Of a stretch of DNA of 64,000 nucleotides, positions 3 through 14,950 are shown in pieces. Source of the stretch: Jannaschia sp. GRR-S6-38 (GTDB lineage Bacteria; Pseudomonadota; Alphaproteobacteria; Rhodobacterales; Rhodobacteraceae); assembly GCF_029853695.1 (NCBI RefSeq), contig NZ_CP122537.1, forward strand, positions 3,245,501 through 3,309,500, written 5' to 3'. The notes under the pieces were generated by a model. The model did not search any database, was not told the origin of the DNA, and saw only the letters and a program-made list of their open reading frames with translations. Every line of letters begins with the position of its first letter. Position 1 is the first letter of the stretch. Both the position numbers and the translations under genes were made by a program.

Positions 3-455
3 CGCAGAGACAAGAAGTTCAAGGATTGCGGGGTCCTGAATTTCTTGGTCCAACGCTACGAGCAACTGCGAAGACGGTTTGATCCCGCCGATCACGGTTG
101 GCGCGTCAAGCCAGCCAAGTTCCTTGATTGGGTCGACCATTTTGAGATCGAGGTTCACGGAGATTTCGTGGATCACCTGCGGAGGTATCACGGGCGAGAC
201 AAGGCGGTGACCGCGCGAGAAGCGAATAAGCCCTCATCCGATCGCCGCGAGGTTGATTCTATAGCCAAATTGTTCACCGCAATGGCTATCGAATACTACG
301 GCTATGATCCAACGGCCGCGAGGAGCCCCATCCCGCGTGAGATCACGGACATGGCTGCAAATCTGGGTCTGTCCATCTCGGATGAAACGGTGCGGAAATA
401 TCTCCGTATCGGCGCCAAAGCGATCCCGGACGACTGGAAGCCAAATGGAGACTAA
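3..455 (+). CDS. Hypothetical protein, 5' end outside the window
   Basis: This reading frame has no stop from the window edge to the TAG/TAA-type stop at 453-455, so the gene probably begins upstream; a TTG at 45 is the first internal start-like codon and would give 136 residues. The visible protein is hydrophilic. Its C-terminal half (residues about 70-130 counted from the TTG) looks mostly helical and ends in a segment that could be a helix-turn-helix (ISDETVRKYLRIGAKAI). I do not recognise the family. It lies at the left end of the recombinase module and points the same way, so it may belong to the mobile element. Function unknown. Confidence 0.55.
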   Translation, partial: RRDKKFKDCGVLNFLVQRYEQLRRRFDPADHGWRVKPAKFLDWVDHFEIEVHGDFVDHLRRYHGRDKAVTAREANKPSSDRREVDSIAKLFTAMAIEYYGYDPTAARSPIPREITDMAANLGLSISDETVRKYLRIGAKAIPDDWKPNGD

Positions 456-597
456 TTGGAATGCGAACAGGCTGGCTGCAAGTAGCTGAAATATAGAACT
501 TCTCCCCTAATCGGGGAGGGCCGTTTCCACTCCGCGTACGGGAAGCTCCGCCTCTGGCATCAATCCGCCACCATTCGCAGCCAGAGGGGCGAAAACA

Positions 598-822
598 GTG
601 TCGAGCAGCGACCGGAACAGCAATGGCGAAACCAGGCGCGCGATGATGCTGCGCGAACGGGACCTCGCCGAGCGCTGGGCAGTGTCACAGCGCACCCTGC
701 AGCGTTGGCGCGCCGAAGGATATGGACCTGCGTGGATCAATATCGGCGGATCTATTCGATATAAGCTTGCGACCGTCGAAGCATTCGAAGGGCAGATGCA
801 GTCTGGGCGGGATGGAGCATGA
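598..822 (+). CDS. Small helix-turn-helix (excisionase/MerR-like) protein
   Basis: A 74-residue DNA-binding protein. The core from about residue 17 reads as a DNA-binding helix-turn-helix (DLAERWAVSQRTLQRWR) followed by a wing-like segment (GPAWINIGGSIRYKLATVEAF), the pattern of AlpA/excisionase-type proteins that steer recombinases or control element genes. The GTG start at 598 has a purine-rich AGAGGGG 8 bases upstream; an ATG at 643 is the alternative and would leave only the HTH core. Its stop overlaps the next start (ATGA at 819-822), so it is translationally coupled to the genes leading to the serine recombinase. A directionality factor or regulator role is inferred from context. Confidence 0.7.
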   Translation: MSSSDRNSNGETRRAMMLRERDLAERWAVSQRTLQRWRAEGYGPAWINIGGSIRYKLATVEAFEGQMQSGRDGA

Positions 823-1013
823 ATCCGTTGGCGCCCCATTACCTGACCCCGCTCGAACGCCGGGCCGAACTCTGCCGGCTCCTCGCCCTCGGCCTGATCC
901 GTCTCCGGATGCGCACAGAAGCGGGTGAAGAGGCGTTGGGCGGAGACGTTCCGCTACACTCTCCGGCCGACCGGAGCGGTCATGCAACTCCAACTCACGG
1001 GAGACTTGCATGA
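819..1013 (+). CDS. Small hypothetical protein of the recombinase module
   Basis: A 64-residue ORF locked between its neighbours by 4-bp overlaps on both sides (ATGA with the HTH gene, and its stop region overlapping the DUF2924 start at 1010). The first 35 residues (LTPLERRAELCRLLALGLIRLRMR) form a likely amphipathic helix; the remainder is unremarkable. I recognise no domain. Small ORFs of this kind often precede DUF2924 and large serine recombinases in alphaproteobacterial elements, and the strict coupling is the main reason to call it real. Confidence 0.55.
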   Translation: MNPLAPHYLTPLERRAELCRLLALGLIRLRMRTEAGEEALGGDVPLHSPADRSGHATPTHGRLA

Positions 1014-1468
1014 CGACCCATGATGCCATTCCCGCGCGCCTGGCCGCGCTGAAGACTGCGACGACGCTGGAGCTGAAGGCGCAGTGGCGCGACCTGTTCG
1101 ACAGCGAGCCGCCGCCGTTCAACCGCCGCTACCTGGAGAGCCGGCTGGCCTACCGCATCCAGGAACTGGCCTATGGCGGGCTGAAGCCCGAGACGATCCG
1201 GCGGCTTGAGCGGCTGGGGGAGGAACTGGACGGCGGCGACCGCAAGAAGAGCCGCGTTCGCGCCGATCAGGGCCGCCCGATCATCGGTACGCGGCTGATC
1301 CGGGAGTGGCAGGGCGTTGAGCATGTCGTGACCGTCACCGCCGACGGCTTCGAATGGCAGGGGCGGCCCTACAAGTCGCTGTCGGCCATCGCGCGCGCGA
1401 TCACCGGCACGCGCTGGAACGGCTGGGTGTTCTTCGGACTCCGGAACCACCGGAGGAGGCCGCGGTGA
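1010..1468 (+). CDS. DUF2924 family protein
   Basis: A 152-residue protein whose sequence matches the DUF2924 pattern. It has an N-terminal helix with the run FNRRYLESRLAYRIQELAYG at about residues 38-57, a linker, and a C-terminal beta-rich part containing GRPIIGTRLIREWQG and [19 protein letters not shown]. The C-terminal half resembles the RAMA-like module common in mobile-element proteins. Biochemical function is unknown; the family is typically encoded directly upstream of a large serine recombinase, as here. The start ATG overlaps the previous stop, and the stop TGA (1466-1468) overlaps the GTG start of the recombinase. Confidence 0.8.
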   Translation: MTTHDAIPARLAALKTATTLELKAQWRDLFDSEPPPFNRRYLESRLAYRIQELAYGGLKPETIRRLERLGEELDGGDRKKSRVRADQGRPIIGTRLIREWQGVEHVVTVTADGFEWQGRPYKSLSAIARAITGTRWNGWVFFGLRNHRRRPR

Positions 1469-2787
1469 GCGACCAGACTGTCCCCAAGGTATTCCCTAAG
1501 CGTCGCTGTGCGGTATACACGCGCAAGTCATCCGAGGAAGGGCTGGACCAGGAATTCAACAGCCTCCAGGCCCAGCGCGAGGCCTGTGAGTCCTACATCG
1601 CCAGCCAGCGCTCCGAAGGCTGGGTGCTCGTCCGCGATCAGTATGACGACGGGGGCATCTCCGGCGGCACGCTGGAGCGGCCGGGCCTGCAGCGGCTGCT
1701 GGAGGACATCGAGGACGGGCTGGTCGACGTGGTGGTGGTCTACAAGATCGACCGCCTCAGCCGCTCGCTGGCGGATTTTGCCAAGCTGGTCGAAGTGTTC
1801 GACCGCAACGGCGTGACCTTCGTCTCGGTGACGCAGAGCTTCAATACCACGACGTCGATGGGCCGGCTGACGCTGAACATCCTGCTGTCCTTCGCCCAGT
1901 TCGAGCGGGAGGTGACGGCCGAGCGCATCCGCGACAAGGTCGCCGCCAGCCGCAAGAAAGGCATGTGGATGGGAGGGGTGCCGCCCTACGGCTACCGCGT
2001 CGAGAACCGGAAGCTGGTCATCGACGACGAAAGCGCCGCGCATGTGCGCTGGATCTTCGCCCGCTTCCTCGAGATTGGCTCGGGCACGGAACTGGCGCGG
2101 GAATTGGCGAAGCGGGGCATCCGCACGCCGCGCGGCAACCGGATCGACAAGAAGTACCTCTACCGGATGCTGAACAACCGCGCCTATGTCGGCGAGGCGG
2201 TCCACAAGGGCGAGAGCTACCCTGGCGAGCACGACGCGATCATCGACCGCGAGACGTGGGACCGCGTCCACGTCATCCTCCAGGAAAGCCCGCGGAAACG
2301 CGCTGCCCGCACCCGCGCAGAGACGCCCGCGCTGCTGAAGGGGCTGCTGTTCGGCCTCGATGGCACGGCTTTCTCGCCGACGCATACCCGCAAGGGCGAC
2401 CGGCTCTACCGCTACTACGTCAGCCAGACGGTGCTGAAGCATGGCGCCGGATCTTGCCCGGTCGGCCGCGTGCCTGCGGGGGAGATCGAGGCGGCCGTCA
2501 TCGATCAGCTTCGCGCCGTGTTTCGCCAGCCGGAGATCGTCGCGGGCACGTGGAAGGCTGCGCGCGCCCACGCCGACGACATCACCGAATCCGACGCCCG
2601 CGCGGCCCTGCAGCAGCTCGACCCACTGTGGGATGAACTGTTTCCCGCTGAGCAGGCCCGCATCGTGGCGCTGCTGATCGAGCGCGTGGACATTGGCACG
2701 GTCGGGCTGAACGTCCGGCTGCGCGTGGATGGCCTGAGCGGCCTCGCGCGAGAGATGCTGGCCGGCGGCATAGAGGCGGCCGCATGA
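1465..2787 (+). CDS. Large serine recombinase
   Basis: Site-specific recombinase of about 440 residues, expected to cut and rejoin DNA at the element's attachment sites. Residues 14-155 form a resolvase-type catalytic domain, with the nucleophile Ser in YTRKS (about residue 22) and the downstream YKIDRLSRS and FAQFEREVTAERI motifs. This is followed by the Recombinase domain (GGVPPYGYR, then the TELARELAKRGIRTPRG segment). The zinc-ribbon position (GLLFGLDGTAF) lacks the usual CxxC pairs. I chose GTG 1465 because it overlaps the upstream stop and has GGAGGAGG 7-14 bases before it; the frame is open further upstream only inside DUF2924. It overlaps the next gene by 4 bp. Confidence 0.9.
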   Translation: MSDQTVPKVFPKRRCAVYTRKSSEEGLDQEFNSLQAQREACESYIASQRSEGWVLVRDQYDDGGISGGTLERPGLQRLLEDIEDGLVDVVVVYKIDRLSRSLADFAKLVEVFDRNGVTFVSVTQSFNTTTSMGRLTLNILLSFAQFEREVTAERIRDKVAASRKKGMWMGGVPPYGYRVENRKLVIDDESAAHVRWIFARFLEIGSGTELARELAKRGIRTPRGNRIDKKYLYRMLNNRAYVGEAVHKGESYPGEHDAIIDRETWDRVHVILQESPRKRAARTRAETPALLKGLLFGLDGTAFSPTHTRKGDRLYRYYVSQTVLKHGAGSCPVGRVPAGEIEAAVIDQLRAVFRQPEIVAGTWKAARAHADDITESDARAALQQLDPLWDELFPAEQARIVALLIERVDIGTVGLNVRLRVDGLSGLAREMLAGGIEAAA

Positions 2788-3191
2788 CCCGCGGGGCTCC
2801 GACCCCGGAGACGGTCACGCTCCACGTCCCATTCAGGATCGCGAAGCGTGGCGGGCGGAAGGAGATGCAGATGCCGGAAGGCGCCACGCAACCGCGACGG
2901 ACCGACAACACGCTGATCAAGGCGCTGGCGCGCGCCTTCCGCTGGAAGCGGATGCTGGAGTCGGGCGAGTTTGCCACCATCGCTGGACTCGCCAAGCGCG
3001 AGGGGATCGCACCCTCCTACATGACCCGCGTCCTGCGGCTAACGCTGCTCGCGCCCGACATCATCGAAGCGATCCTGGACGGGAAGCAGGGGCCGGAGGT
3101 GACGCTCGCGCAGAAGCTGGAGCCGTTTCCGGTGGAATGGGCGCACCAACAAGACCGCAGCGGACAGTTTGGCGGAAGCGGTCGTTGGTGA
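2784..3191 (+). CDS. Recombinase-associated HTH protein
   Basis: A 135-residue protein coupled to the recombinase by an ATGA overlap. Residues about 40-100 carry a helix-turn-helix (SGEFATIAGLAKREGIAPSYMTRVLRLTLLAPDI) of the type found in small proteins encoded right after serine recombinases in alphaproteobacterial elements. The segment LEPFPVEWAHQ near the end is a recurring signature of that group. The last 15 residues (after EWAHQQ) are glycine-rich and look like out-of-family tail, so the 3' end may be altered. A role as accessory DNA-binding protein is inferred, not shown. Confidence 0.65.
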   Translation: MTRGAPTPETVTLHVPFRIAKRGGRKEMQMPEGATQPRRTDNTLIKALARAFRWKRMLESGEFATIAGLAKREGIAPSYMTRVLRLTLLAPDIIEAILDGKQGPEVTLAQKLEPFPVEWAHQQDRSGQFGGSGRW

Positions 3192-3261
3192 CTGTGCAGC
3201 GACCAGCAGATTCGAGCCCACTCGGCTCCGTCGGTCTGATCAATCGCCGGGGACCGTCCTA

Positions 3262-4296
3262 TCAGACGATATGGCCGTACCGACGCCCGCTTGCCATAGA
3301 ACGTACCCCGGCCAACCGATCAGCAAACGCCTTCTCGAAGTCGTCGGCTTCCAGTGCGCGCATTTCAAATCCGTCGCCAGATCGCCAGAAAACAATTACT
3401 TTCCCATCATACAAGTCAAAACCGTGCGTTTCCGGAATTGGAAGAGTAATCTTCTCCATCAGATTATTCCCGAGTCGCAAGTTTCTGGATACGCTATCAC
3501 CCGTTGGCGGGCGGAATGAAATTTCTCCAATGACAGAGTTGCGTGGGAGATTTGGCGGCACATCAAACCCAAAGTATTTGCTCATCCCCCTTGGGAGATC
3601 AATTTGGTTTCCGGGCCGGAAATCTCCTCTATTCCTCGTGACATAACCGGCTTCAATCCAGAAAATCCCGTCGAAGTCGGCGAGCTCGACTTCATCATCG
3701 TCTGGTGCATTGGCATCCAGAGAGAATAGGGCGTCCCATTTCTCCTCATACTCTTCAATGAGATCCTCAAGAGGCGTCGCCGCGTCCCACAATTCCTGCG
3801 CAAAGTGATAGGAGCGAAGCATTGTTCTTTCTCGCTCCAAAGGAGATGAAGCTTGAAGTGCAACGCCTGCCTCTACATTTTTCCGAAGCCCGCTCGCGGA
3901 AAAATTTCCCGACCCAGCAACAACGCCATATCGATCTGTCGAATCATTATTTAAAAACGCAGCCTTTGCGTGGAAGTCGCGCCTGGGAATAAATCCTGGC
4001 TGATGCAGCAGCCATTCGCCATCATGAATGCGAACCGCGGCGCTATTTTGTTCAGCGATAAATCGCAGGGCCGCTGGCTGTGTTCTGCCATAGTCGATGC
4101 CGAAAATCCATTTACTCGGAGTGATACCCCAAAACTCTGCCCCAAGCTCAAGATCAAAGGCTGCTGCACCTGACTGGGTAGCATATGCATACGCCCCGAG
4201 AAATGCCTCGGATTGAGCCCAATTATTGACGCGCTTGATCTCTGACAGGGTTGTGTCGCTGCCGTGACTTCCATGAAAAAACGAGGACAACTTCAT
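3262..4296 (-). CDS. PLD-family nuclease with possible C-terminal DNA-binding domain
   Basis: A 344-residue protein with a single HKD-type active site: H109-x-K111, then GSGN at about 128-131 followed by FSASGL. One HKD copy per chain implies a dimeric active site, as in Nuc and BfiI. Residues about 190-344 form a separate beta-rich region (PGNQIDLPRGMSKYFGF, then GEISFRPPTGDS) that could be a B3-like DNA-recognition domain, as in BfiI/NgoFVII-type restriction enzymes; this second part is inference. It is the last gene of the minus-strand island operon, and its ATG overlaps the stop of the GIY-YIG gene. Codon use is visibly less GC-rich than in the rest of the operon. Probable role: DNA cleavage in a restriction-type defence system. 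Confidence 0.7.
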   Translation of the reverse strand: MKLSSFFHGSHGSDTTLSEIKRVNNWAQSEAFLGAYAYATQSGAAAFDLELGAEFWGITPSKWIFGIDYGRTQPAALRFIAEQNSAAVRIHDGEWLLHQPGFIPRRDFHAKAAFLNNDSTDRYGVVAGSGNFSASGLRKNVEAGVALQASSPLERERTMLRSYHFAQELWDAATPLEDLIEEYEEKWDALFSLDANAPDDDEVELADFDGIFWIEAGYVTRNRGDFRPGNQIDLPRGMSKYFGFDVPPNLPRNSVIGEISFRPPTGDSVSRNLRLGNNLMEKITLPIPETHGFDLYDGKVIVFWRSGDGFEMRALEADDFEKAFADRLAGVRSMASGRRYGHIV

Positions 4297-5489
4297 GCTT
4301 TCACCACCGGCTCCAGTGCCGCCGACCCAAGATTATAGCGATATGTGGCAATAGTCCCGTCCTTGATCCGCTCGACGGCATCATCAATCACAGATCGCGG
4401 CACCAGGAACCATTCACGCGGCACAACGGGATTGCCGAAGCGGTCCTTGATCTCGATATCGAGCCGCGCCGGATCAAAGATGCGATGGATCAGGTTCTCA
4501 AGTTTGGTCCGATTGATGTTGAAAAGTTCGTAGGTCGCAACGATCTCGACATCGGCCAGCAGGAACGTCGCGTCGAGCCTCGCGTTAGCGATGCGCCGCT
4601 CGACCTTGCCACTCGTCACACCGATCTTGTGCAGCACTTGGCGGTTGTCCCTGACCGCCGGAAGATCGGACTTGCTTCGAAGGACGTAGATAGTACCGCT
4701 CGCCTCGTCGCCGTCGATCCTCTCATCCGAAAATAACGGCCCGGCACTGGGCTCGATGATCCTACGGCCTGTCTCGTCCTGCTGGAGCGCCTTTTGCAGC
4801 GAGCGCATGAGCATGTTGCTTTCGGTGCCGTTGTCGAAGATCACCCGCAGGCGCGCATCGATGTTGCCGTGTTCGTTGGCAAAAGGCTCTTCCATGTCGG
4901 CGACATAGGCCTTCTGCCCCCCAAGAATGTAGAAGCGGCCAGACTGGATTTCCGACTTTCGCTCGAAGCGCCGCGTCTCGCGCATGCCGTTATCGAGCTC
5001 TTTCTGGACCTGTTCGAAGAGCGGCTTGAACCGGTCGAAGTCTTCGCAGCGCTTGCGGCTGGCGATCTCTTCCGACGCTTTCTTCTCGGCACTGGAACGG
5101 ACGTGACGAAGTTCGGCGATGTCGGGCTTGTCTGCCTCGACGCCCAGCTCCGCGAGCAGAGCATCGTCATCCATGTCTTCGTCAGCCGCCGGAGCAGCCA
5201 ACTCGCTGCCAGCGATCAGGCCCTGATGATCAAGCGGCTCAAGCAGCGTGCGGCACTCTTCGAGCGCGCGTAGACGATCAAGCCGCACGGCATAGAGGCG
5301 TTCGAAGATGTCCTTGTCCTCGCCGTGTTTCGGGGCGTGCCCGTGCTCGTCGACAAACCGCTGAATCTCCTCGAAACCTGCTATGATGCGCTCTTCGCGC
5401 GGCGTGCGCGCGGCGGCCTTCTTTGCCGTGACCTCGACCCCGAGCTCGGCAAGCAGTGCGTCGTCTTCGTCGGTGAACTGTTTAGCCAT
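4293..5489 (-). CDS. GIY-YIG nuclease family protein
   Basis: A 398-residue protein with a C-terminal GIY-YIG/T5orf172-like domain. GTIYVLR lies at about 265-271, HKIGVTSGKVERRI (the YIG counterpart plus the conserved Arg) at about 288-300, and KLENLIHRIFDP with the probable metal-binding Glu at about 329-340. The N-terminal 260 residues are charged and helical. They contain the motif DDALLAELGVE twice, at about residues 9-19 and 108-118. The domain predicts a nuclease, and the operon position between helicase and PLD protein suggests a restriction or DNA-processing subunit. It starts inside the helicase stop (8-bp overlap) and ends overlapping the PLD gene start. Confidence 0.8.
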   Translation of the reverse strand: MAKQFTDEDDALLAELGVEVTAKKAAARTPREERIIAGFEEIQRFVDEHGHAPKHGEDKDIFERLYAVRLDRLRALEECRTLLEPLDHQGLIAGSELAAPAADEDMDDDALLAELGVEADKPDIAELRHVRSSAEKKASEEIASRKRCEDFDRFKPLFEQVQKELDNGMRETRRFERKSEIQSGRFYILGGQKAYVADMEEPFANEHGNIDARLRVIFDNGTESNMLMRSLQKALQQDETGRRIIEPSAGPLFSDERIDGDEASGTIYVLRSKSDLPAVRDNRQVLHKIGVTSGKVERRIANARLDATFLLADVEIVATYELFNINRTKLENLIHRIFDPARLDIEIKDRFGNPVVPREWFLVPRSVIDDAVERIKDGTIATYRYNLGSAALEPVVKA

Positions 5490-7528
5490 TTGCCGCCTCC
5501 GCCTTTATGCGGGCGAGAAAGGCAACGCCCTCGGCCATCCGCCTTTCCCAGGCATCCGGCGAGGTGATCGACGGCAGGCGCCCGCGCTCCTCCTTGAACT
5601 TCAATGCGCGCTTGGCAAGGTCGCGCGCCTCTTCCGGGGTCAGTTGCACCTTCTTCGCGGCGATGACGGCTGCCACCTGCTTGAGGCTTTCTTCGCTCAT
5701 CGTCTTGGCGAGGATGGCGTAGGCCTCGCTGAACGGATTGATGCGGTCGATCAGGTCGATATCAAGCTCGCGGACGTCCATCGCAAACTTGCGTACACCG
5801 TCGATCAGGGCGGTATTCGCGCTCTTCTCTTCCTCGGCGATTTGCAGGGCGTGTTCCTTCGCTTTCTGCGTCAGGTTCAGCGCGGCGATGGCGTGTTGGC
5901 GCACTGTCTCCTGATCTTCGTCGTCGAGTTCGGGGTACTTGTCCTTGATGATCTTACCCATGCGGACCTGGGTCAGCTCCTCGGGTACGAGTTCCTCGTC
6001 GAAGAGCCCGCGCTCGATAGTCGGCTTGTTCTGCACGAAGGCGGCGATGACCTCGTTCAGGTCCTCCTGACAGATCTCGTTCGGCTTCCTTGCTCTTCGG
6101 CTCGGCGAGTCCCTTGATCTCGATCTGGAACTGGCCGCTGTCTTCGTTGAAGCCGATATTGCATTGGTCGGGATCGTAACCGCCCACGCCGTAGTCGAAG
6201 CCCTCGACCGGCCCGCTGTCCGGCTTCTTGGGTGAGAAATTGAAGCGCGGCGCTAACACCTGCTCCATAAGCAGGCTGGCGGCAATCGCCTTGAGCGTAT
6301 CGTTGACCGCCTCGGTCACGGCCTCCTCGGAGGCGTCCGGTTCTGCGATCAGGTTGGTGAAACGCGCGAGGGTCTTGCCGGGCGCGTCCCGCGTGGCCCG
6401 CCCGATGATCTGCACGATCTCGGTCAGGCTGGCGCGATAGCCGACCGTCAGCGCGTGCTCGCACCACACCCAGTCAAAGCCCTCCTTCGCCATGCCGAGC
6501 GCGATGATGATGTCGACATGGTCGCGGTTATCTTTCTGGGCGGGGTCCTTGAGCGCCGCCGACACCCTGTCCCGCTTTGACGGATCGTCATCGACCAGAT
6601 CGGCTATCCGGAGCACGCGCCCGTCCGCTATCTTCACCAACTGGAAGCCAGTCGCGGGATCGGAGCCCTGCCAGTCGCCCAGTTCGTCGATGATATGCTC
6701 GACCTCGCGGTGCTTGTCCCTCGTGCTCTCCCGCGAATTGACGCTCGGAATGTGGATGATCGTCTTCTCGACGGGATCGAGGACCTTGAGGATGTCGTCC
6801 GCGTACGGTCCCGAGTAGAAGAAGTAGCCGATATCGAGCTGTTTCAGGTATTTGTAGCCATTGAGCTGCTCGTAGTAGGTGTAGGTGACCGTCTCGAACC
6901 TGGCTTCGTCATGCGGCATCAGGACCGGCTCGGCATCACCGCGGAAATACGATCCGGTCATCGCCACGACGTGCACCTTGTTGCGGGTGATCAACGCGGC
7001 GAGGTGCGCGCCAAGCTTGTTATCAGGGTTGGCAGAGACATGGTGGAACTCGTCCACCGCGATGAGGCGGTCGTCGAACGCCTCCACCCCGAACTTGTCC
7101 ACCGCGAACCGGAAGGTCGCATGGGTGCAGACCAGAACCTTGTCGTCGCTATCCAGGAAGGTCTTGACGGCGTTGACTTTGCCGCCCTCGCTGCCCGGCG
7201 CATTGCACAGGTTCCAATTGGGCTCGACCGTCCAGTCGGCCCAAAAGCCGAACTTGCTTAGAGGCTCATCGTGAAAGCTCGACCCGATAGATTTCTCGGG
7301 CACGACGATGATAGCCTGCTTCAAGCCCTGGTTCGCCAGCTTGTCGAGCGCGACAAACATCAACGCGCGGCTCTTGCCCGATGCGGGCGGGGACTTGATC
7401 AGGAGATACTGCTCGCCCCGCTTCTCATAGGCGCGCTCCTGCATCGGACGCATGCCCAGCTCGTTCGACTTCGTCGAACTGCCGTTGCGAGCATAGGTAA
7501 CAGAAACAGAGGGAACACCTTTGGTCAT
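5482..7528 (-). pseudogene. Superfamily 2 DEAD/DEAH-type helicase, frameshifted
   Basis: Two overlapping reading frames together make one helicase of about 680 residues. The 5' part (7528 down to about 6085) carries a Walker A (PPASGKS, about residues 47-53), a DEFH box (about 159-162), a motif III-like MTGSY and motif VI (QIIGRATR). After IKGLAEPKSKEA the sensible protein continues in another frame (NEICQEDLNEVIAAF and on to the stop at 5482), so one extra base lies near 6081-6086. The site is not a homopolymer, which argues against programmed slippage; a real mutation or a sequencing error are both possible. If real, the helicase ends in an unrelated tail about 25 residues after the break, with all motor motifs retained. 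It is coupled to both flanking genes. Confidence 0.75.
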
Positions 7529-7530
7529 CG

Positions 7531-7944
7531 CTAAATCATATACTCTTCCAAGAAATTGATCGCCCAGGAAGGCGGGGATGGCCAGCTTCGCAGCCCGTTT
7601 TCATGCCAGGTCACGCTGGCATCTCCAATGAGGTTATTGGTCTCCAGATGGCCGACAAGCTTATCATGATCGTAGACATACACGGCATCGCCGAGAATGA
7701 AGGCTATGTGGATGCCCTTCCCACGGTACTTGCGGTCAATCACCAAGCGCCCCTTGAGCTGCACCCTTAAGAAGGTCTCGCCGTCAATGTGACAGGCGAT
7801 AAAGTCCGCGCCCTGCCAATCATCTGTCAGCCGCAGGCAATTGAAGCCGTAGTCAGCCATCCTCGCCGCAACCTTGTGGAAGTTGTAGTTTTCCTTCTGC
7901 CGCGAATTGAGATCGGTATAGGGGATCGGCTCAAACTGGCTCAT
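7531..7944 (-). CDS. Small PD-(D/E)XK-like protein
   Basis: A 137-residue protein with the spacing of a restriction-like nuclease core: an N-terminal helix with QKENYNFHKVAARMADYGF, then D47 in WQGADFIA, a beta hairpin, and Q62-L-K64 in LRVQLKGRL, i.e. D-(14)-QxK. This resembles the small PD-(D/E)XK/DUF4365-type proteins. It could be the cleaving subunit of the neighbouring methyltransferase/helicase pair, or a structural relative without activity. The ATG overlaps the methyltransferase stop (ATGA) and only 2 bases separate it from the helicase start, so it is a firm member of the operon. Confidence 0.65.
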   Translation of the reverse strand: MSQFEPIPYTDLNSRQKENYNFHKVAARMADYGFNCLRLTDDWQGADFIACHIDGETFLRVQLKGRLVIDRKYRGKGIHIAFILGDAVYVYDHDKLVGHLETNNLIGDASVTWHENGLRSWPSPPSWAINFLEEYMI

Positions 7945-10694
7945 GCTGCCGCCCCTCTCGTGGTCATCTTTTTGTACAGATCAAACAGCTTTTCCAGCCG
8001 TTCGGTGTCGTTCTTGAAGAGGCGACCGATATAGATGCGCTCCAGCACTTCATCGTTACGATCATGCGCGGCACGCAAGTCATCCGGCATCTTCTCCGGG
8101 TCGTAAAGATCGGCAATAGTGGCAGGGAAGTGCGCTTCGCGCGCCAGAAGAAGTTCCTCGGCGCTTCGGGTAAGGTCAGCCTTGTTCTTTTCAGTAAGTC
8201 GAGGGAGAGGAAAGGTGTTCCAACCGAGTGTATTGGAGTAGCGATAGTCCGTCTTGAGCTTGCCGCAAGCCGTAGCGATCCAGACCGTGTGAAGCTTGGA
8301 GGCAACCAGCGCGAAGTTCCAAAGGGGCGCATCGTAGATCGCGAATAGCAGATCACTCACAATTGAGCGTCCATGGAGCACATCTACCGGAAGATAGGAC
8401 CTCCTCTCGGAGGAAACTTTCGAGACAGCAATAGAATATTTCTTTGCGGTCCCGGCGATCTGAACGAAACGATGGGGCCGTTTGGCAAAATCACGCGTAG
8501 AACTTGCTGCGCTCTTAAGGCGGAAGGCTCGAACGTTCGCCAGGACTTCTCGCAGGAAAGGGTGACATTCCGCAAACTCACGGTCCGATTCAGCAATCCA
8601 AATACACCATCTTGGCTTTCCCTGGATCATCTGTTCGGAGCCAAGGTAGGGCCGGATGAACCGATCTAGTTCGGGATAGCGTTCGAGAGCACTCCTTCTT
8701 TCTTCGGAGGAGAGGACAAAGTTTCCGTCATCTCTGGGCATATTTCCGAACAGCATCGGGGAGACTTCGGTCAGAGGGGATCGGCTTTGCTGAACAATGG
8801 TGTTCGTGCCCGCAACAAGATACGAGTTAATGCTTTCAACCTGTCTTTCTTCGATAGCTCCGTCATCAGCGGTAGAATATAGCCTCCTGAATCTTCCCAC
8901 GTCATTGGAGATGGAGACAATCGACACAATGACGCCGGCATTCTTGCTCGCTAGATTTGACCACTTGAAGGACGTATGGGCGAACTGAATTTCGTGGCCC
9001 GTGGCGAAAATGTGGGGCCACAGCATGGGCACTTGCAGCCCCTGACAAATTGAATTTGTTGCAACAAAAGCCGAAGCGGATTTTGTTTTGGTCCCGTAAT
9101 CCGCAGCTTTCCAGAACCAGCCAGAGACATAGTCAAGGGACTTCCAATTGTTCGTGTTCGCACCAAAAACGAGCCTAAGATCGTCCTTCTGCTCGGGAGA
9201 TTGCCATTTGCTTCCAAGATATGGTGGATTCCCGCAGATATATGTCTCACCTCCTTCGTTCTCGAAGTCGATCTCGGCTTGGTCGAGCGGCGTGCTAAAA
9301 AGATCGTCGCCGTGCATCTTCACGCCCGTTCTCGTGGGAGGGCAGATGCTGCTCCAATCAATACGCAGCGCGTTGCCGCAGGTGATCCAGTTCATCGCGT
9401 CAAGCGGCAGGAAGTCACGGAGCGCTTCCCGTTGGCCGCGATAGGTCACATCACACTGATACTCGGCGATGATCAGCGCCAGCCGCGCAATCTCGGCGGG
9501 AAAGTCGCGAAGCTCGATTCCCCGGAAATTCGTCAGAGGGATTTCAGAGCGGCGATCGGCCTCGCCGCGCCGCTTGTTAATCTCGGCCTCGATGGCGCGC
9601 ATTTCCTTATAGGCGATGACCAGGAAATTGCCTGAGCCGCAGGCGGGGTCAAAAACCCTGATCTTGGCCATGCGGCTGCGCAAGTTCAAAAGCTTGCGCG
9701 CGTTGTCTCCCGTCTCCTCCAGCTTCTCGCGCAGGTCATCGAGGAAGAGTGGGTTCAGTACCTTAAGGATGTTTGGTACGGACGTATAGTGCATGCCGAG
9801 CGCGCCACGCTCCTCGTCGTCGGCAACGGCCTGGATCATCGAGCCGAAGATGTCGGGATTGATCTTCTTCCAGTCGAGATTGCCGATGTGCAGCAGGTAG
9901 GAGCGGGCGATGCGGCTGAACCGCGGGACGTCGACGCTCTTCGAGAACAGCCCGCCGTTAACGTAAGGGAAGGAGCTGGCCCAACGAGGGATGCCTGCCG
10001 CCGCACGGTCCTCGATCTTCGTGTTCATGGCGCGGAAAAGCTCGCTGATGATCTCGTGCGTGTTCGAGCTGTCCTTCTCGCTCATCCGCTCGATCGTCGA
10101 TGTGAATTCGTCGTCCTTCGGGAAGATGTCGGTGTCCTCGGCGAAGAAGCAGAAGATCAGCCGCGCCATGAAGTGGTTCATGTCGTGACGGCGTTCTGAC
10201 GTCCCCCACTCGGGGTTGTCCTTGAGCAGCTCGACATAGAGCCGGTTCAGGCGACCTGTGGCCTTGATGTCAAAGGCGCTCTCGCGGACCTGCTTGACGG
10301 TCGTGATACCTGCCAGCGGCAGGAAAAACCCGAAGTGCTCGGGGAAGTCCGCGAAGTCGCAGACGACGACCTCGCCGGTGTTCACGTCTTCGGCCTGAAA
10401 GTCCCTGCCATCGGTCGCGAGGATGAATTTGGCTTTGGCGCGCGTCGTCGCGGGGCTGCTGCGTAGCTGTGCCAGGCAAGCCTCGACCTCGCCCTCGTCG
10501 CACGCCTTGATGTGGATGTTATTGGTTTGCAGAACGCCGCCGCAGTCTGACCTGTTGGACGCACCGGACCGCAGCCGTTTGACGGTCGTCGCCTTGTTGC
10601 CGAAGGCCTCAAGGAAGGCGAACGGGAACTCGTCCGGCTCGAACGGCTGCTCGGCCAGCGCGGATATCGCTTCTTCGATCTCAACGGCGTTCAC
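7941..10694 (-). CDS. MmeI-like class I DNA (adenine) methyltransferase
   Basis: A 917-residue DNA methyltransferase. The SAM-binding motif FDPACGSGNF is at about 348-357 and the catalytic NPPY motif of N6-adenine enzymes at about 489-492. The first 340 residues correspond to the N-terminal and helical spacer regions of the MmeI-like group, and the region after about 600 should hold the target-recognition domain and C-terminal helices. No PD-(D/E)XK nuclease motif is visible in the N-terminal 150 residues, unlike MmeI itself, so cleavage would have to come from other operon genes. It follows the ribbon-helix-helix gene by 19 bp and overlaps the next gene by 4 bp. Expected role: protective methylation of self DNA and target recognition. 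Confidence 0.88.
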   Translation of the reverse strand: MNAVEIEEAISALAEQPFEPDEFPFAFLEAFGNKATTVKRLRSGASNRSDCGGVLQTNNIHIKACDEGEVEACLAQLRSSPATTRAKAKFILATDGRDFQAEDVNTGEVVVCDFADFPEHFGFFLPLAGITTVKQVRESAFDIKATGRLNRLYVELLKDNPEWGTSERRHDMNHFMARLIFCFFAEDTDIFPKDDEFTSTIERMSEKDSSNTHEIISELFRAMNTKIEDRAAAGIPRWASSFPYVNGGLFSKSVDVPRFSRIARSYLLHIGNLDWKKINPDIFGSMIQAVADDEERGALGMHYTSVPNILKVLNPLFLDDLREKLEETGDNARKLLNLRSRMAKIRVFDPACGSGNFLVIAYKEMRAIEAEINKRRGEADRRSEIPLTNFRGIELRDFPAEIARLALIIAEYQCDVTYRGQREALRDFLPLDAMNWITCGNALRIDWSSICPPTRTGVKMHGDDLFSTPLDQAEIDFENEGGETYICGNPPYLGSKWQSPEQKDDLRLVFGANTNNWKSLDYVSGWFWKAADYGTKTKSASAFVATNSICQGLQVPMLWPHIFATGHEIQFAHTSFKWSNLASKNAGVIVSIVSISNDVGRFRRLYSTADDGAIEERQVESINSYLVAGTNTIVQQSRSPLTEVSPMLFGNMPRDDGNFVLSSEERRSALERYPELDRFIRPYLGSEQMIQGKPRWCIWIAESDREFAECHPFLREVLANVRAFRLKSAASSTRDFAKRPHRFVQIAGTAKKYSIAVSKVSSERRSYLPVDVLHGRSIVSDLLFAIYDAPLWNFALVASKLHTVWIATACGKLKTDYRYSNTLGWNTFPLPRLTEKNKADLTRSAEELLLAREAHFPATIADLYDPEKMPDDLRAAHDRNDEVLERIYIGRLFKNDTERLEKLFDLYKKMTTRGAAA

Positions 10695-10713
10695 TTACTG
10701 GTCCCGCTTCTTC

Positions 10714-10887
10714 TTACTTGACGATCTGCTCCGCCTGCACGGCCTTGGCTGCCGCGCGCTTCTCGACATAGCTTCTCATGAACTCACGAAGGACCTGGGC
10801 CGCGGGTTTGTCATCTTCCCGGCACGCGCTCAAAAACTGCTCGCGCAACTCCCGGTCGATTCGTATGCGCAGCCCTGCATCCTTCAT
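10714..10887 (-). CDS. Ribbon-helix-helix DNA-binding protein
   Basis: A 57-residue protein: a short beta strand (GLRIRIDRELREQF) followed by two helices (KPAAQVLREFMRSYVEKRA), the ribbon-helix-helix/Arc-like pattern of small repressors and antitoxins. I prefer the ATG at 10887; the frame is open to a GTG at 10980, but the added residues look unlike the family and would cover the repeats upstream. It is the first gene of the minus-strand methyltransferase/helicase/nuclease operon, so it probably autoregulates that operon through the GTGTA/TACAC repeats just upstream. No toxin gene is adjacent, so an antitoxin role is less likely. Confidence 0.65.
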   Translation of the reverse strand: MKDAGLRIRIDRELREQFLSACREDDKPAAQVLREFMRSYVEKRAAAKAVQAEQIVK

Positions 10888-10896
10888 AGGTAGTGA

Positions 10897-10926
10897 GTGT
10901 AGCCATTGGATACACGCTTGTGTAGC
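10897..10926. promoter_or_regulatory. Candidate operator repeats of the island operon
   Basis: Ten bases upstream of the preferred ATG of the ribbon-helix-helix gene, GTGTAGC occurs at 10897-10903 and again at 10920-10926. A TACAC at 10911-10915 pairs with either copy (GTGTA-N9-TACAC and TACAC-N4-GTGTA). Ribbon-helix-helix repressors usually bind such short inverted or direct repeats at their own promoter, so this is a plausible autoregulatory site. Binding is inferred. Confidence 0.45.
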
Positions 10927-11421
10927 GTCATTCTTGACTTCACACACTAGGGATTGCGGCGCGGTCGGCGTTCTTGCCACAAATGTGCCACGACGAGTTT
11001 CAGAGAATGGTGGAGTAGTGCGGGTTCCGATCGGGAAGATCCAAGGCGGCTCGAACTACCGATTGCGGGAACCAAAGCTGGGCCGCAGCGACGCGACCGT
11101 TGTCGGTTTGCAATTTGGACTATCACCCATCCCGCTGGCGCGCCGGTACGGCTCGTACGCGACGAGGTCGTTTAGGCAGGCCGTGGCGAACGCCGGCAAT
11201 GGCGAACGTTCGATCTCTGTTCCATCTTATCGAGCGCGACCGGCGTCGAAGTACTATGCCCAGCACCGAGGAAAAGCTCTGCACACCAATATCTTACAGG
11301 CTATTCACCAAATCGGCACAGTCATGAGGTCCGGAGAATATTCGCCCTGAGAGACCGCTTCCGGGTCACTTGGCAGCAAGGGCAGTGCTCAGCCCCACCC
11401 GCATAACCTTCGAAAACAACG
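10927..11421. other. Non-coding junction between island and core chromosome
   Basis: About 500 bases without a convincing gene. A 190-codon open frame on the + strand (10778-11350) runs antisense through the ribbon-helix-helix gene and has no family-like sequence. The stretch has mixed base composition and separates the island operon from the tRNA-Ser transcript, whose terminator begins at 11422. The right end of the mobile element probably lies here, but I found no repeat that marks it. The promoter of the minus-strand island operon must be in the first 100 bases. Confidence 0.4.
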
Positions 11422-11443
11422 AAAAAATCCGGCCGCAGCCGGA
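11422..11443 (-). terminator. Rho-independent terminator of tRNA-Ser
   Basis: Read on the minus strand, a perfect 6-bp stem (TCCGGC/GCCGGA) with a TGCG loop is followed by six T residues. It lies 28 bases beyond the CCA end of the tRNA-Ser gene, the right place for its terminator, and marks sequence that is probably still native chromosome. Confidence 0.75.
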
Positions 11444-11470
11444 CCGGGAGAACGCTTTCGCGAGGGCAAG

Positions 11471-11560
11471 TGGCGGAGCGGAAGGGATTCGAACCCTCGA
11501 GACGGTTTCCCGCCTACACACTTTCCAGGCGTGCGCCTTCGACCACTCGGCCACCGCTCC
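11471..11560 (-). tRNA. tRNA-Ser (anticodon GGA)
   Basis: On the minus strand the 90-base sequence begins GGAGCGG and ends CCGCTCC-G-CCA, a perfect 7-bp acceptor stem with an encoded CCA. The anticodon stem (CACGC/GTGTG) encloses the loop CTGGAAA, giving anticodon GGA. A long variable arm (GGCGGGAAACCGTC region) is typical of a class II serine tRNA, and the T loop reads GGTTCGAATCC. It sits next to the accessory island, as tRNA genes often do, but the native terminator 28 bases downstream means the element did not enter at the tRNA 3' end. Confidence 0.95.
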
Positions 11561-11608
11561 GCGGGCGGGTCTAAAGCAGGGGGGCGGGGCTTCGCAAGGG
11601 CGCATTCC

Positions 11609-12424
11609 TCAGGGCTTCAGCAGATCGGCCAGCCTGTCGCCGGCCGTGTCCAGCGGACCGCCGGCGCGGGTGACGAGGACGAGCGCGCGATGCCGCGCGA
11701 GCCGGCGCGACGGCCGGTCGCCCAGGTCGCTCGCCGCCAGGATCGTCGCCCCCAGCCCGGCATCGAGACAGGCGAGGATCGCGGGAATATGGTCGAGCGT
11801 GAGCGCCGGGCGCGCGGCGAGCTCGGGATGGTCGCGCAGTTCGGCGGCGACGACGCGGCCGAGCCCGGTCTCGGGCGTGAATTGCAGGAAGGGTGCATCG
11901 GGAGCGAGGCCCTCGGGCCGCGCGACGGCCAGCGGGTCCCGGGCCAGCACGCGGTGGCGCAGAGCGCCCGACGGGATGCCCGTGGCCGTGACGATCGCCG
12001 CGTCGAGGCCGCCATCGGCGACCGCGCTCTCCAGCCCCTCGGACAAGCCGGTGTGGAAGGTGAAGCGCGCATGCGGCAGCGCCGCGGCGGCGTGGCGCAG
12101 GAAGCCGGGCAGGAGCCGCGGTCCCGCGCTCGCGGTCAGGCCCAGCCGGAAGCGGCCCGCCGGCGCCGCCTCGGGCGCGGCCAGCGCGCGCAGCCGGGCC
12201 TCGGCCCCGGTGACCTCCGCCGCGGCCTCGGCCACCGCGCGGCCCAGCGCCGTCAGCCGGGGCGGGCGGGTCGCGCGGTCGAACAGCGTCGCGCCGAGCG
12301 CGCCCTCCAACGCCTTCATCTGCATCGACACGGCCGAGAGCGTCTGGTTCGTGCGCTCCGCCGCGTCCCGGAAGGAGCCGTGACGCGCGATGGCGCGCAA
12401 GGTGAGGAGGTCTCGGTTGTTCAA
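11609..12424 (-). CDS. LysR family transcriptional regulator
   Basis: A 271-residue regulator with an N-terminal winged helix-turn-helix (LLTLRAIARHGSFRDAAERTNQTLSAVSMQMKALEGALG is the DNA-binding region, residues about 5-45) and a LysR substrate-binding domain (from about 90: GRFRLGLTASAGPRLLPGFL). The length is slightly short for the family (about 290-310). The start is TTG at 12424; no in-frame ATG precedes the HTH. It is divergent from the acyl-CoA dehydrogenase/CoA-transferase pair with 80 bases between, the usual arrangement for a LysR protein controlling its neighbour in response to a pathway metabolite. The inducer is unknown. Confidence 0.88.
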   Translation of the reverse strand: MNNRDLLTLRAIARHGSFRDAAERTNQTLSAVSMQMKALEGALGATLFDRATRPPRLTALGRAVAEAAAEVTGAEARLRALAAPEAAPAGRFRLGLTASAGPRLLPGFLRHAAAALPHARFTFHTGLSEGLESAVADGGLDAAIVTATGIPSGALRHRVLARDPLAVARPEGLAPDAPFLQFTPETGLGRVVAAELRDHPELAARPALTLDHIPAILACLDAGLGATILAASDLGDRPSRRLARHRALVLVTRAGGPLDTAGDRLADLLKP

Positions 12425-12504
12425 GAATACTGATCCTGATCTTCAGGCAAATTCGATGGTGTTGAACATAGCGGCGGCGTTATCCTTCGCACAAGGAGGC
12501 CGCC

Positions 12505-13647
12505 ATGTCCGATCATCTGACCCATGCGCAGGCCCTGCTGCCTGCCTTCCGCAATCGCGCCGCCACCTGGGATCGCGAGCGGCGCTACGCCCATGACAAC
12601 GTGGCCGCGCTGGCGGAGGCGGGGCTGATGGGCATGACCATCCCGCGGGACTGGGGCGGCCCGGGCCTGCCCCTGTCGCAGGTCGTCCCGATCGTCGAGG
12701 CCGTTTCGGGCGCATGCACCCTGACAGGTCGCATCCTGGTCGAAGGCAACATGGGCGCGCTGAGCGCCGTCATGGCCTTCGGCACCGACGCGCAGAAGGC
12801 GCTGGCGGCGGAGCTGGTTCTGGCCGGAGACAAGCCCGCCATCTGCATCACCGAGCCCGGTGCCGGCTCGGACGCGACGGCGATGACCACGACGGCCACG
12901 CGCGTCCCGGGGGGCTGGCGGCTCGACGGCGTGAAACACTGGATCACCGGCGGCGGCGTCTCGAAGCTGCACCTGATCTTCGCGCGCACGCCCGACGGGA
13001 TCCGCGGCTTCCTCGCGCTTCCGGGCGCGGGTCTGCGCGTCGCGCGGCTGGAGCGGACGATGGGCCTCTGCGGGATGCCCGAGGCGGAGCTGCACCTGGA
13101 GAACCTGTTCGTGCCCGACGACATGGTGATCCCGGATGCGGGGTTCGGCGAGCTGATCGATGCCTACAACACACAGCGCGTGGGCGCGGCGACGATCGCC
13201 CTGGGCGTCGCGGCGGAGGCAGCGCGGCTCGCGGCCGCCCGCCTGAAGGACCGGCACCAGTTCGGCCGGCCGCTGGCCGAGTTCCAGGGCCTGCAATGGA
13301 TGCTCGCCGACATGGACACCGAGATCCACGCCGCCCGACTGCTGATCGGCGAGGCGACCCGGACCGAGCGGTTCCCCGACCGGGTGAAGGCCGCGCGCGC
13401 CAAGCTGATGACCTCCGAGATGGCGGTCCGCGTGGTCGACCGGGCGCTGCAGATCTTCGGGGCCGAGGGCTACGGCTCAAAGACGCCGCTCGAGCGGATG
13501 TATCGCGACGTGCGCATGTTCACGATCGGCGGCGGCACGGCGCAGGTCCTGCGCAACCAGATCGCCGCGGCGGCGCTCGACATGAAGCTGCCCCAGACGC
13601 GCGACGGGTGGCCCGCCGCCTGGCAGGGTGCTATCGCCGCCGAGTGA
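12505..13647 (+). CDS. Acyl-CoA dehydrogenase family protein
   Basis: A 380-residue FAD-dependent acyl-CoA dehydrogenase, expected to desaturate an acyl-CoA at the alpha-beta bond and pass electrons to ETF. Domain order is normal: an N-terminal helical domain, a middle beta domain (ICITEPGAGSDATAM at about 112-126, WITGGGVS further on) and a C-terminal helical domain (RHQFGRPLAEFQGLQWMLADM). At the usual catalytic-Glu position it reads IGGGTAQVLRNQI, so the Glu of the classic YEGTSEI motif is replaced, as in several family branches that place the base elsewhere. An AGGAGG-like site precedes ATG 12505. It is followed by a CoA-transferase gene, probably in one operon; the substrate is not evident. 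Confidence 0.9.
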   Translation: MSDHLTHAQALLPAFRNRAATWDRERRYAHDNVAALAEAGLMGMTIPRDWGGPGLPLSQVVPIVEAVSGACTLTGRILVEGNMGALSAVMAFGTDAQKALAAELVLAGDKPAICITEPGAGSDATAMTTTATRVPGGWRLDGVKHWITGGGVSKLHLIFARTPDGIRGFLALPGAGLRVARLERTMGLCGMPEAELHLENLFVPDDMVIPDAGFGELIDAYNTQRVGAATIALGVAAEAARLAAARLKDRHQFGRPLAEFQGLQWMLADMDTEIHAARLLIGEATRTERFPDRVKAARAKLMTSEMAVRVVDRALQIFGAEGYGSKTPLERMYRDVRMFTIGGGTAQVLRNQIAAAALDMKLPQTRDGWPAAWQGAIAAE

Positions 13648-13670
13648 CCGCTCGATCTCCGGAGGCTTCC

Positions 13671-14861
13671 ATGCCCGACCGAACCGGCCCGCTGGCGGGC
13701 GTCCGCGTGCTCGATCTCAGCCGCATCCTCGCCGGTCCGACCGCGACGCAGCTTCTGGGCGACCTGGGCGCGACCGTTCTCAAGGTCGAGAACCCGGCCA
13801 CGGGCGGCGACGACACGCGGCAATGGGGGCCGCCCTACGTGAAGGACGGCGCGGAGGATACGGATCTATCAGCCTATTTCATGTGCGCGAACCGCAACAA
13901 GCTGTCGGTCGCCGTCGATATCGCCGCGCCCGAGGGCCAGGCCGAAATCCGCAGGCTTGCCGCCATGGCCGATATCGTGATCGAGAATTTCAAGCCGGGC
14001 GGGCTGGCGAAATACGGGCTGGATTACGACAGCCTGCGCGCGGTCAACCCGAGGCTCGTCTACGGCTCGATCTCGGGCTTCGGGCAGACGGGGCCGAACC
14101 GCCACAAGCCCGGCTACGACCTGATGGCCCAGGGCTTCGGCGGGATCATGTCCCTGACCGGCGAGCCCGAGGGTCAGCCGATGAAGGTCGGCGTCGGCAT
14201 CGCCGACGTGATGTGCGGCATGTATGCCTGCGTGGGCCTCCTGGCCGCGCTGCGCTACGCCGAGGCGACGGGCGAAGGCCAACAGGTGGAGGTGGCGCTC
14301 GTCGACAGCCAGATCGCCTGGACGATCAACGAGGCCGTCAACACCCGCCTGACTGGCAAGGCCCCGATCCGCCGGGGCAACGGCCATCCGAACATCGTCC
14401 CCTACGGCGTCTACGCGACCGCCGATGGGCATGTCATCGTCGCGGTCGGAAATGACAGCCAGTTCAAGCGGTTCTGCGGCGTCCTTCAACTGGGAGACCT
14501 CGCCGCGGACCCGCGCTTTTCCACAAATCCCGCGCGGCTCGACCATCGCGCTGCGCTGGCCGAACACCTGGAGCCGGCGCTGGCCGGGCTCACCACCGCG
14601 CAGGTGATCGAGGGGCTGGAGGCCGCGCGCGTCCCCGTGGGCCCGGTCCAGACCCTGCCCGAGGTCTTCGCCTCCGAGCAGGTCGCCGCCCGCGGCATGG
14701 CGCTCGACATGGAGGCCGACGGCCTGACCCTGCCGCTGGTCGGCAACCCGCTGCAGTTCTCGCGCACGCCCGTCACCTATCGCCATCCGCCGCCGCGCTT
14801 CGGCGCCGATAGCGACCGGCTGACCCGCGACGACCCCTTCGCGGATGATGACGCGCCGTAA
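13671..14861 (+). CDS. CaiB/BaiF (class III) CoA-transferase
   Basis: A 396-residue class III CoA-transferase, which moves CoA between carboxylic acids. It has the conserved N-terminal GVRVLDLSRILAGP followed by LLGDLGATVLKVE, the middle VNPRLVYGSISGFGQTGP motif, and the probable catalytic Asp in VEVALVDSQ at about residue 210. Start ATG 13671 is preceded by GGAGG at 13661-13665; the open frame extends upstream only as a shadow inside the dehydrogenase. Spacing of 23 bases and the same strand indicate an operon with the acyl-CoA dehydrogenase: activate an acid as its CoA ester, then oxidise it. The physiological acid cannot be deduced. Confidence 0.9.
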   Translation: MPDRTGPLAGVRVLDLSRILAGPTATQLLGDLGATVLKVENPATGGDDTRQWGPPYVKDGAEDTDLSAYFMCANRNKLSVAVDIAAPEGQAEIRRLAAMADIVIENFKPGGLAKYGLDYDSLRAVNPRLVYGSISGFGQTGPNRHKPGYDLMAQGFGGIMSLTGEPEGQPMKVGVGIADVMCGMYACVGLLAALRYAEATGEGQQVEVALVDSQIAWTINEAVNTRLTGKAPIRRGNGHPNIVPYGVYATADGHVIVAVGNDSQFKRFCGVLQLGDLAADPRFSTNPARLDHRAALAEHLEPALAGLTTAQVIEGLEAARVPVGPVQTLPEVFASEQVAARGMALDMEADGLTLPLVGNPLQFSRTPVTYRHPPPRFGADSDRLTRDDPFADDDAP

Positions 14862-14950
14862 ACAGTCCGTGACACCGGCCGTGCGGCTATGGCTGCGCGT
14901 GGGATCAGACGGTTAAGGCTTTGGGTATCCCCCGTCGATCCGAGGCCCGC

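Follow-up and report, generated by a model that had tools for sequence, protein, structure and literature searches.

Gene content of the operon

The window, that is, the whole stretch of 64,000 nt analyzed here, comes from Jannaschia sp. GRR-S6-38 (NZ_CP122537.1, 3,245,501-3,309,500), and all coordinates given below are window-based. An open reading frame (ORF) listing confirmed a run of minus-strand genes at 3262-10980, the core of which is probably of the DnmA-YeeB-YeeC type, a Type I-like ATP-dependent restriction-modification (R-M) cassette located on a tRNA-Ser-integrated island and accompanied by two optional cargo genes. The genes, with script-chosen starts, are as follows:

10714..10980, minus strand: ribbon-helix-helix (RHH) protein of 88 aa, likely regulator (RHH_9, E 0.0013, below the cut-off)
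7941..10694, minus strand: MmeI/DnmA-like adenine methyltransferase (MTase) of 917 aa, GTG start (Pfam MmeI_N, hel, Mtase, TRD and C)
7531..7944, minus strand: cargo gene, candidate PD-(D/E)XK (Hjc-like) nuclease of 137 aa (no Pfam domain)
5954..7528, minus strand: N-terminal part of a superfamily 2 (SF2), YeeB-like helicase (Pfam DEAD/ResIII)
5482..6036, minus strand: C-terminal helicase part, read in a different frame; 184 aa, GTG start (alignment with intact relatives)
4293..5489, minus strand: candidate GIY-YIG/T5orf172 (YeeC-like) nuclease of 398 aa (MUG113, 5.4e-14; T5orf172, 2.2e-12)
3262..4296, minus strand: cargo gene, candidate single-HKD nuclease of the phospholipase D (PLD) family, 344 aa (PLDc_2, 0.03; DrmC, 5.4e-5; both below the cut-off)

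A preliminary description of this DNA had reported six overlapping genes, among them one for an SF2 helicase. The genes are present, but the RHH gene (from 10714) does not overlap the MTase gene (to 10694), and the helicase, which does carry the DEAD/ResIII domains, is divided between 5954-7528 and 5482-6036, a split that the description had missed. Matches to the RHH gene, mostly partial, were found by tblastn just 5' of the MTase in 8 of the 80 related loci introduced below.

Residues of catalytic type are conserved in the candidate nucleases. In the GIY-YIG protein, G265, Y268, K288-I-G290, R299, E331 and H335 are invariant in a 10-row alignment spanning Pseudomonadota, Cyanobacteriota, Bacillota and Actinomycetota, and in the PLD protein H109-x-K111 and G128-S-G-N131 are invariant in an alignment of the same depth. 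The 137-aa protein shows a PD-(D/E)XK fold, as had been proposed, including the E, D and (E/Q)-x-K residues of its core, and its fold neighbors in structural alignment include the homing endonuclease I-Ssp6803I. Its family comprises 2,344 relatives, and none of the 120 listed has a Pfam domain. A sequence search of PDB gave no useful relatives for the helicase, GIY-YIG, PLD or 137-aa proteins.

The operon's seven ORFs were scanned with PADLOC (E≤1; for the MTase, the best 25 of 39 families). The MTase matched, over its full length, a type IIG restriction enzyme-methyltransferase (E 1.4e-290), and strong matches were confined to this protein, the other ORFs giving weak ones or none. No match to DrmA, DrmB or DrmD, nor to PglZ or BrxC, was found among the seven ORFs, which bears out the earlier remark that DrmA/DrmB and PglZ/BrxC are missing; the BREX-type signal was limited to PglX-like stretches of the MTase. 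On this PADLOC scan a DISARM or BREX variant is rejected, the best MTase match being type IIG.

Conserved core and exchangeable cargo

The conserved unit consists of the MmeI-like MTase, the SF2 helicase and the GIY-YIG/T5orf172 protein. It was followed in 80 loci, which are close relatives since they are the best 80 of at least 558 confirmed ones. The MTase gene lies upstream of the helicase gene in 78 of the 80 loci and the GIY-YIG gene downstream of it in 79, the misses being near contig ends; the helicase-GIY-YIG junction measures -47 to +15 bp in 77 of 78 loci and +218 bp in one. In the window, the helicase gene, present but split, lies downstream of the MTase gene, and the GIY-YIG gene lies directly 3' of the helicase. 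The order MTase, helicase, GIY-YIG appears in annotated neighborhoods from Klebsiella (two), Nitrobacter, Synechococcus, Pseudomonas and Paracoccus, as well as in Ligilactobacillus (with the MTase annotated in pieces), Paenarthrobacter, Methylosinus and E. coli.

Among 72,556 plasmid records, 263 match the helicase, 151 of them across 80% or more of the query, as do 7 of 100 genomes, its own included. The Klebsiella copy, used as a DNA query, matches 91 of 5,426 E. coli genomes, always on the chromosome. Of 50,697 phage records, 3 match and none covers 80% of the helicase, and a phage-borne system is rejected on this basis. An Acinetobacter plasmid (L020) has no MTase but keeps remnants of the helicase and GIY-YIG genes, close to a blaOXA-23 copy and insertion sequence (IS) elements. 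On a plasmid of Nitrobacter hamburgensis X14 (L009), the cassette lies, according to the annotation, closely between CBASS-type genes upstream (212-4198) and an AAA ATPase gene with McrC downstream (11570-14872).

The junction between the MTase and helicase genes is bimodal: the genes lie within a few bases of each other in 36 of 78 loci (L059 being counted here by hand, as the script had picked a wrong start) and are separated by an insert of 258-2330 bp in 42. In a sample of the class, described in the next section, an insert was found in 6 of 13 complete loci, at least two of the loci probably belonging to the 80-locus set as well. The genes in this slot were grouped by single-linkage clustering, one representative of most families was scanned, and labels were set by hand. 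They comprise PLD proteins (6 loci), the 137-aa family (5), RhuM/PDC-S05 (5), YhcG/PDC-S02 (5), AlbA/Schlafen (3), families of ∼260 aa (4), 277 aa (4) and 289 aa (2) for which Pfam gave no significant match, and PIN, zeta-toxin-like and one further gene with a sub-threshold T5orf172 match. Seven slot loci hold only ORFs outside the named families, and in L057, where the MTase is broken, one of the two slot ORFs is an MTase remnant. Several cargo starts overlap the MTase stop.

Two of these families are uncharacterized cargo, the ∼260-aa proteins of L034, L057, L065 and L080 and the 277-aa proteins of L038, L061, L077 and L085; one representative of each gave no significant Pfam or PADLOC match. 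At G092:C13:9530-10542 (L161-L164, L133) the slot apparently contains two tandem copies of the 137-aa family.

The preliminary description had concluded that all the products work together. For the three core genes the claim is well backed (78-79 of 80 loci). It is not backed for the 137-aa gene (5 of 80) and the PLD gene (9 of 80), which occur together in a single locus, L045. A new and obligate defence system with several nucleases, made up of all five catalytic genes, would agree with their tight packing and with the presence of the whole set in L045 at 97-99% protein identity. L045 (JAHDXY010000169.1), however, is a 9.6-kb contig that aligns end-to-end with 1840-11478 of the window at 96.1% DNA identity with 13 gap openings, and is a copy of the same island; binned as Burkholderiaceae, it may be misbinned or reflect a recent transfer. 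Synteny of all five genes, a check suggested at the outset, was found among the 80 loci only in this copy, and cores with 95-99% identical helicases carry other cargo or none. The 80-locus census largely refutes an obligate five-gene system, which we consider highly improbable.

Such differences in cargo beside nearly identical helicases were seen in L083/L084, L087/L091/L098, L077/L082 and L053/L060. On a quick tree (22 of 77 inner branches starred; no shuffles), the slot label changes at least 39 times over 79 labeled tips, and the occupied or empty state 21 times; seven loci labeled "other" were counted as different, L050 and L095 are unlabeled, and combined labels were treated as states of their own. 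Among the 69 pairs with helicases at least 0.90 identical, slot content differs in 47 and agrees in 22, of which 18 are both empty.

The slot genes could be neutral or selfish passengers, e.g., homing-type nucleases or toxin-antitoxin pairs, that make use of the operon promoter. This is compatible with the proposed core, and we rate it as a serious possibility at somewhat below even chances. Members of the 137-aa family also occur apart from the cassette and have I-Ssp6803I as a fold neighbor, and PIN and zeta-toxin-like genes are among the cargo; against this, the cargo recurs as defence-type families (RhuM/PDC-S05, YhcG/PDC-S02, AlbA, PLD), is found at the junction between MTase and helicase, hardly ever at that between helicase and GIY-YIG, and overlaps the MTase stop in the cases mentioned above. 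A type ISP gene is the neighbor of one 137-aa relative (L016), and one PLD relative lies within a DISARM locus (L018).

A second variable place lies 3' of the GIY-YIG gene, where a same-strand ORF follows closely in 27 loci. Genes scanned there include those for a reverse transcriptase, SIR2, OLD-like and Mrr proteins; a HemN-like gene is hardly cargo. In L083 (12255-13601), L087 and L091, ORFs of one cluster overlap the end of the GIY-YIG gene, the L083 member having a reverse-transcriptase domain.

Methyltransferase motif, target recognition and the split helicase

The window MTase matches the MmeI structure 5hr4 with an E value of 3.5e-139. The catalytic residues of the MmeI nuclease are given as D70, E80 and K82 (PMC4833311). 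The corresponding place was compared using 241 genomes sampled evenly from the class, 20 of which, the window's genome included, have an MmeI-like MTase. Twenty places were taken from the 19 other genomes; small fragments (G120:C141, G211:C46) were left out, the G092 and G110 matches contain stops, and L138/L076 and L134/L056, on contigs of equal length, are probably the same loci, giving at least two probable overlaps with the 80-locus set. In 13 places a helicase and a GIY-YIG gene adjoin the MTase, five MTases are solo (one of them, L147, with a stray 53-residue helicase match), L140 lies at a contig edge, and L145 is a fragment with a GIY-YIG gene and without a helicase.

MmeI itself was not a row of the alignment, the solo relatives with MmeI spacing serving instead. 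The motif D...E-Q-K occurs at identical spacing in all five solo relatives, whereas none of the 12 partner-linked MTases has it at the aligned place (L142, which lacks the N-terminus, was left out). It is also missing there from L140, L145, L008, L010, L015 and the window MTase, so the earlier characterization of the latter as MmeI-like but without a nuclease of its own stands. With the window MTase the solo proteins share no more than 32-34% identity, so the contrast represents one deep split, not repeated losses. It is what would be predicted if the helicase and GIY-YIG protein had taken over cutting.

The MTase also contains a variable segment at about residues 488-820, in which identity drops from the NPPY motif (residue 489) and recovers near 820. 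This target-recognition domain (TRD) is less than 0.60 identical in 56 of 61 comparable pairs with helicases at least 0.90 identical (8 of the 69 pairs have no comparable TRD, and the pairs are not independent). Residues 1-480 and 840-912 mostly stay high between close pairs, and in 41 of the 47 pairs having both parts, residues 1-480 are at least 0.80 identical while the TRD is below 0.60. Exceptions to the low TRD identity are L026/L055, L031/L069 (identical), L037/L058, L045/window and L064/L073. The pattern points to specificity switching, which fits restriction and not a fixed regulator. Neither TRD nor cargo exchange was found described in the portions of the DnmA-YeeB-YeeC literature searched, in which the three-gene arrangement itself is already known.

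From the gene content we infer a sequence of complex formation, translocation and cutting. The MmeI-like enzyme would read an asymmetric site via its TRD and methylate adenine in the host's DNA. Where the DNA is unmethylated, the enzyme would recruit the SF2 helicase, whose ATP-driven movement would license the GIY-YIG protein to cut, substituting for the lost MmeI nuclease. Interchangeable genes, here those of the Hjc-like and PLD nucleases, occupy the junctions that follow the MTase and GIY-YIG genes, likely as back-up or helper effectors. More tentatively, and with the odds leaning against it, the cassette may be a modular immune platform, with two independently exchanged modules, the TRD and an MTase-helicase slot for swapped, mutually unrelated second-line effectors (Hjc-like PD-(D/E)XK, PLD, RhuM, YhcG, AlbA, PIN and others) that would be triggered upon restriction failure.

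Several points weigh against an active R-M cassette. The B. subtilis dnmA-yeeB-yeeC genes are described as giving no protection against three phages and not blocking transformation (PMC9973331, PMC7261158), no YeeB or YeeC biochemistry was met in the parts of the DnmA literature covered, and the likeness to the B. subtilis cassette is one of published gene content and order, not of directly compared sequences. Given the type IIG label of PADLOC, cutting by the MTase itself would be excluded only by the missing motif; the solo and partner-linked MTases are two divergent groups (about 33% identity across), and L014, a distant partner-linked protein, matches a loose D..(E/Q)xK in its N-terminus, although not at the aligned place. 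Finally, the window's own helicase is split.

The split is evident from the alignments. Matches to the ORF at 5954-7528 stop at residues 481-484 in all six other genomes, and among the 30 plasmid records listed (263 in total) homology ends at residue 484 in 29 and at 432 in one. In an alignment with nine intact relatives, homology runs on from the first ORF into the ORF at 5482-6036, which corresponds to their C-terminus. The reading frame is open throughout in 79 of 80 relatives, the 80th being cut by a contig end; the split is therefore not what is normal for the family, and a programmed event, such as a frameshift, is rejected. The motifs that we take to be those of SF2 helicases fall within the first 484 residues. 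If the assembly is correct, the window copy probably methylates DNA but would restrict weakly or not at all. A sequencing or assembly error, leaving the window copy intact, is a plausible alternative, a little short of an even bet, and is compatible with the proposed core. It would fit the single event in an operon whose remaining ORFs are open and the intact frame of the 96%-identical L045; the genome is in one contig with 99.81% completeness, which speaks against an error but leaves the matter unsettled. In plasmid records H2-H6, H8 and H11 the helicase bears the misleading name "pseudomurein-binding repeat-containing protein," apparently from a PMBR match in its C-terminal part.

The split also agrees with the view that only the MTase matters, as an orphan regulator, and that the helicase and nucleases are passengers or dead. 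This was the conclusion for B. subtilis DnmA, which is studied as an orphan-type regulatory methylase. The B. subtilis phage and transformation results (PMC7261158, PMC9973331) agree with such an epigenetic relic, which may hold for the window's single copy. For the family it is unlikely: the helicase frame is intact in 79 of 80 relatives, the catalytic-type residues of the GIY-YIG protein are invariant in 10 rows across four phyla, and TRD switching would scramble the regulator's targets. We favor the R-M cassette, and the defence-type character proposed earlier is supported. TRD switching and cargo exchange argue that the wider DnmA family is an active restriction system; the slot provides a list of effector candidates, including the large Hjc-like family, and makes the idea of a back-up effector inside an R-M operon testable.

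Island setting and comparison with known systems

The surroundings of the operon contain the following features:

1010..1468, plus strand: DUF2924 protein, upstream of the recombinase (Pfam)
1354..2787, plus strand: large serine recombinase (Pfam Resolvase, Recombinase, Zn-ribbon; nearest NCBIfam models CcrB and XisF, below the cut-off)
11408..11478, no strand assigned: direct repeat of at least 71 bp, putative attachment site (second copy ∼26.8 kb away, left of the window)
11471..11560, minus strand: tRNA-Ser (gga), probable island insertion site

The G+C content is 0.55-0.62 at about 3-11 kb and 0.65-0.75 beyond 11 kb. The repeat at the tRNA-Ser 3' end recurs ∼26.8 kb to the left, outside the window (L150), where 30 of the 31 core bases are matched; elsewhere in the joined 35 kb, the best matches were 18/31 on the same strand and 21/31 inverted. 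Given this recurrence, the cassette probably occupies one end of a tRNA-Ser island that also has serine recombinases. Further left, the island appears to hold a copper-type P-ATPase and phage-like genes, names that come from reading the sequences. L045 has all the genes of the operon, with the helicase frame intact.

The preliminary description knew of no named system with this gene set, but three of the genes form the published DnmA-YeeB-YeeC arrangement. DnmA is placed among the MmeI homologs that lack the endonuclease motif and have yeeB- and yeeC-like genes beside them (PMC7261158), for which a Type I-like R-M system was suggested by Morgan 2009, as cited there; the synteny of dnmA-yeeB-yeeC is reported to be conserved, and deletion of the dnmA or yeeB homolog of Vibrio crassostreae to have raised sensitivity to some phages (cited in PMC9973331). 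No other name for the cassette was met in the portions of the published literature (preprints excluded) that were covered. The B. subtilis genome, used as a control, gives an MmeI_Mtase match. Both cassettes have a nuclease-motif-less MmeI-like MTase, then an SF2 helicase, then a T5orf172/GIY-YIG protein, in an island setting, whereas the window adds the RHH gene, the Hjc-like nuclease gene between the MTase and helicase genes, and the PLD gene, and its helicase is split.

Among more distant systems, the type IIL enzyme MmeI (5hr4), as described in PMC4833311, shares the spacer, MTase, TRD and C-terminal domains along its length; compared with type IIL/IIG MmeI, the window MTase lacks D..E-x-K at the aligned place and has the helicase and GIY-YIG proteins in addition. 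Type ISP enzymes (LlaGI, LlaBIII), from the descriptions available, follow the same logic of MTase-TRD, SF2 motor and nuclease, but as one chain with an Mrr-family nuclease, while the window has separate ORFs and a GIY-YIG nuclease. CglI, which pairs a helicase with a PLD endonuclease (PMC5737866) and is compared by description rather than sequence, likewise has separate SF2 ATPase and nuclease subunits and a PLD nuclease, which is optional in the window family. DISARM shares an adenine MTase and a PLD protein (DrmC-like, a weak match), but the window operon has no ORF matching DrmA, DrmB or DrmD in the PADLOC scan. Type I hsd loci carry R-linked cargo of the RhuM, YhcG and AlbA types inside the operon and switch specificity. 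Although the cassette has neither hsdS nor hsdR, the window family resembles these loci in both respects, in-operon cargo of the RhuM/YhcG/AlbA types and specificity switching.

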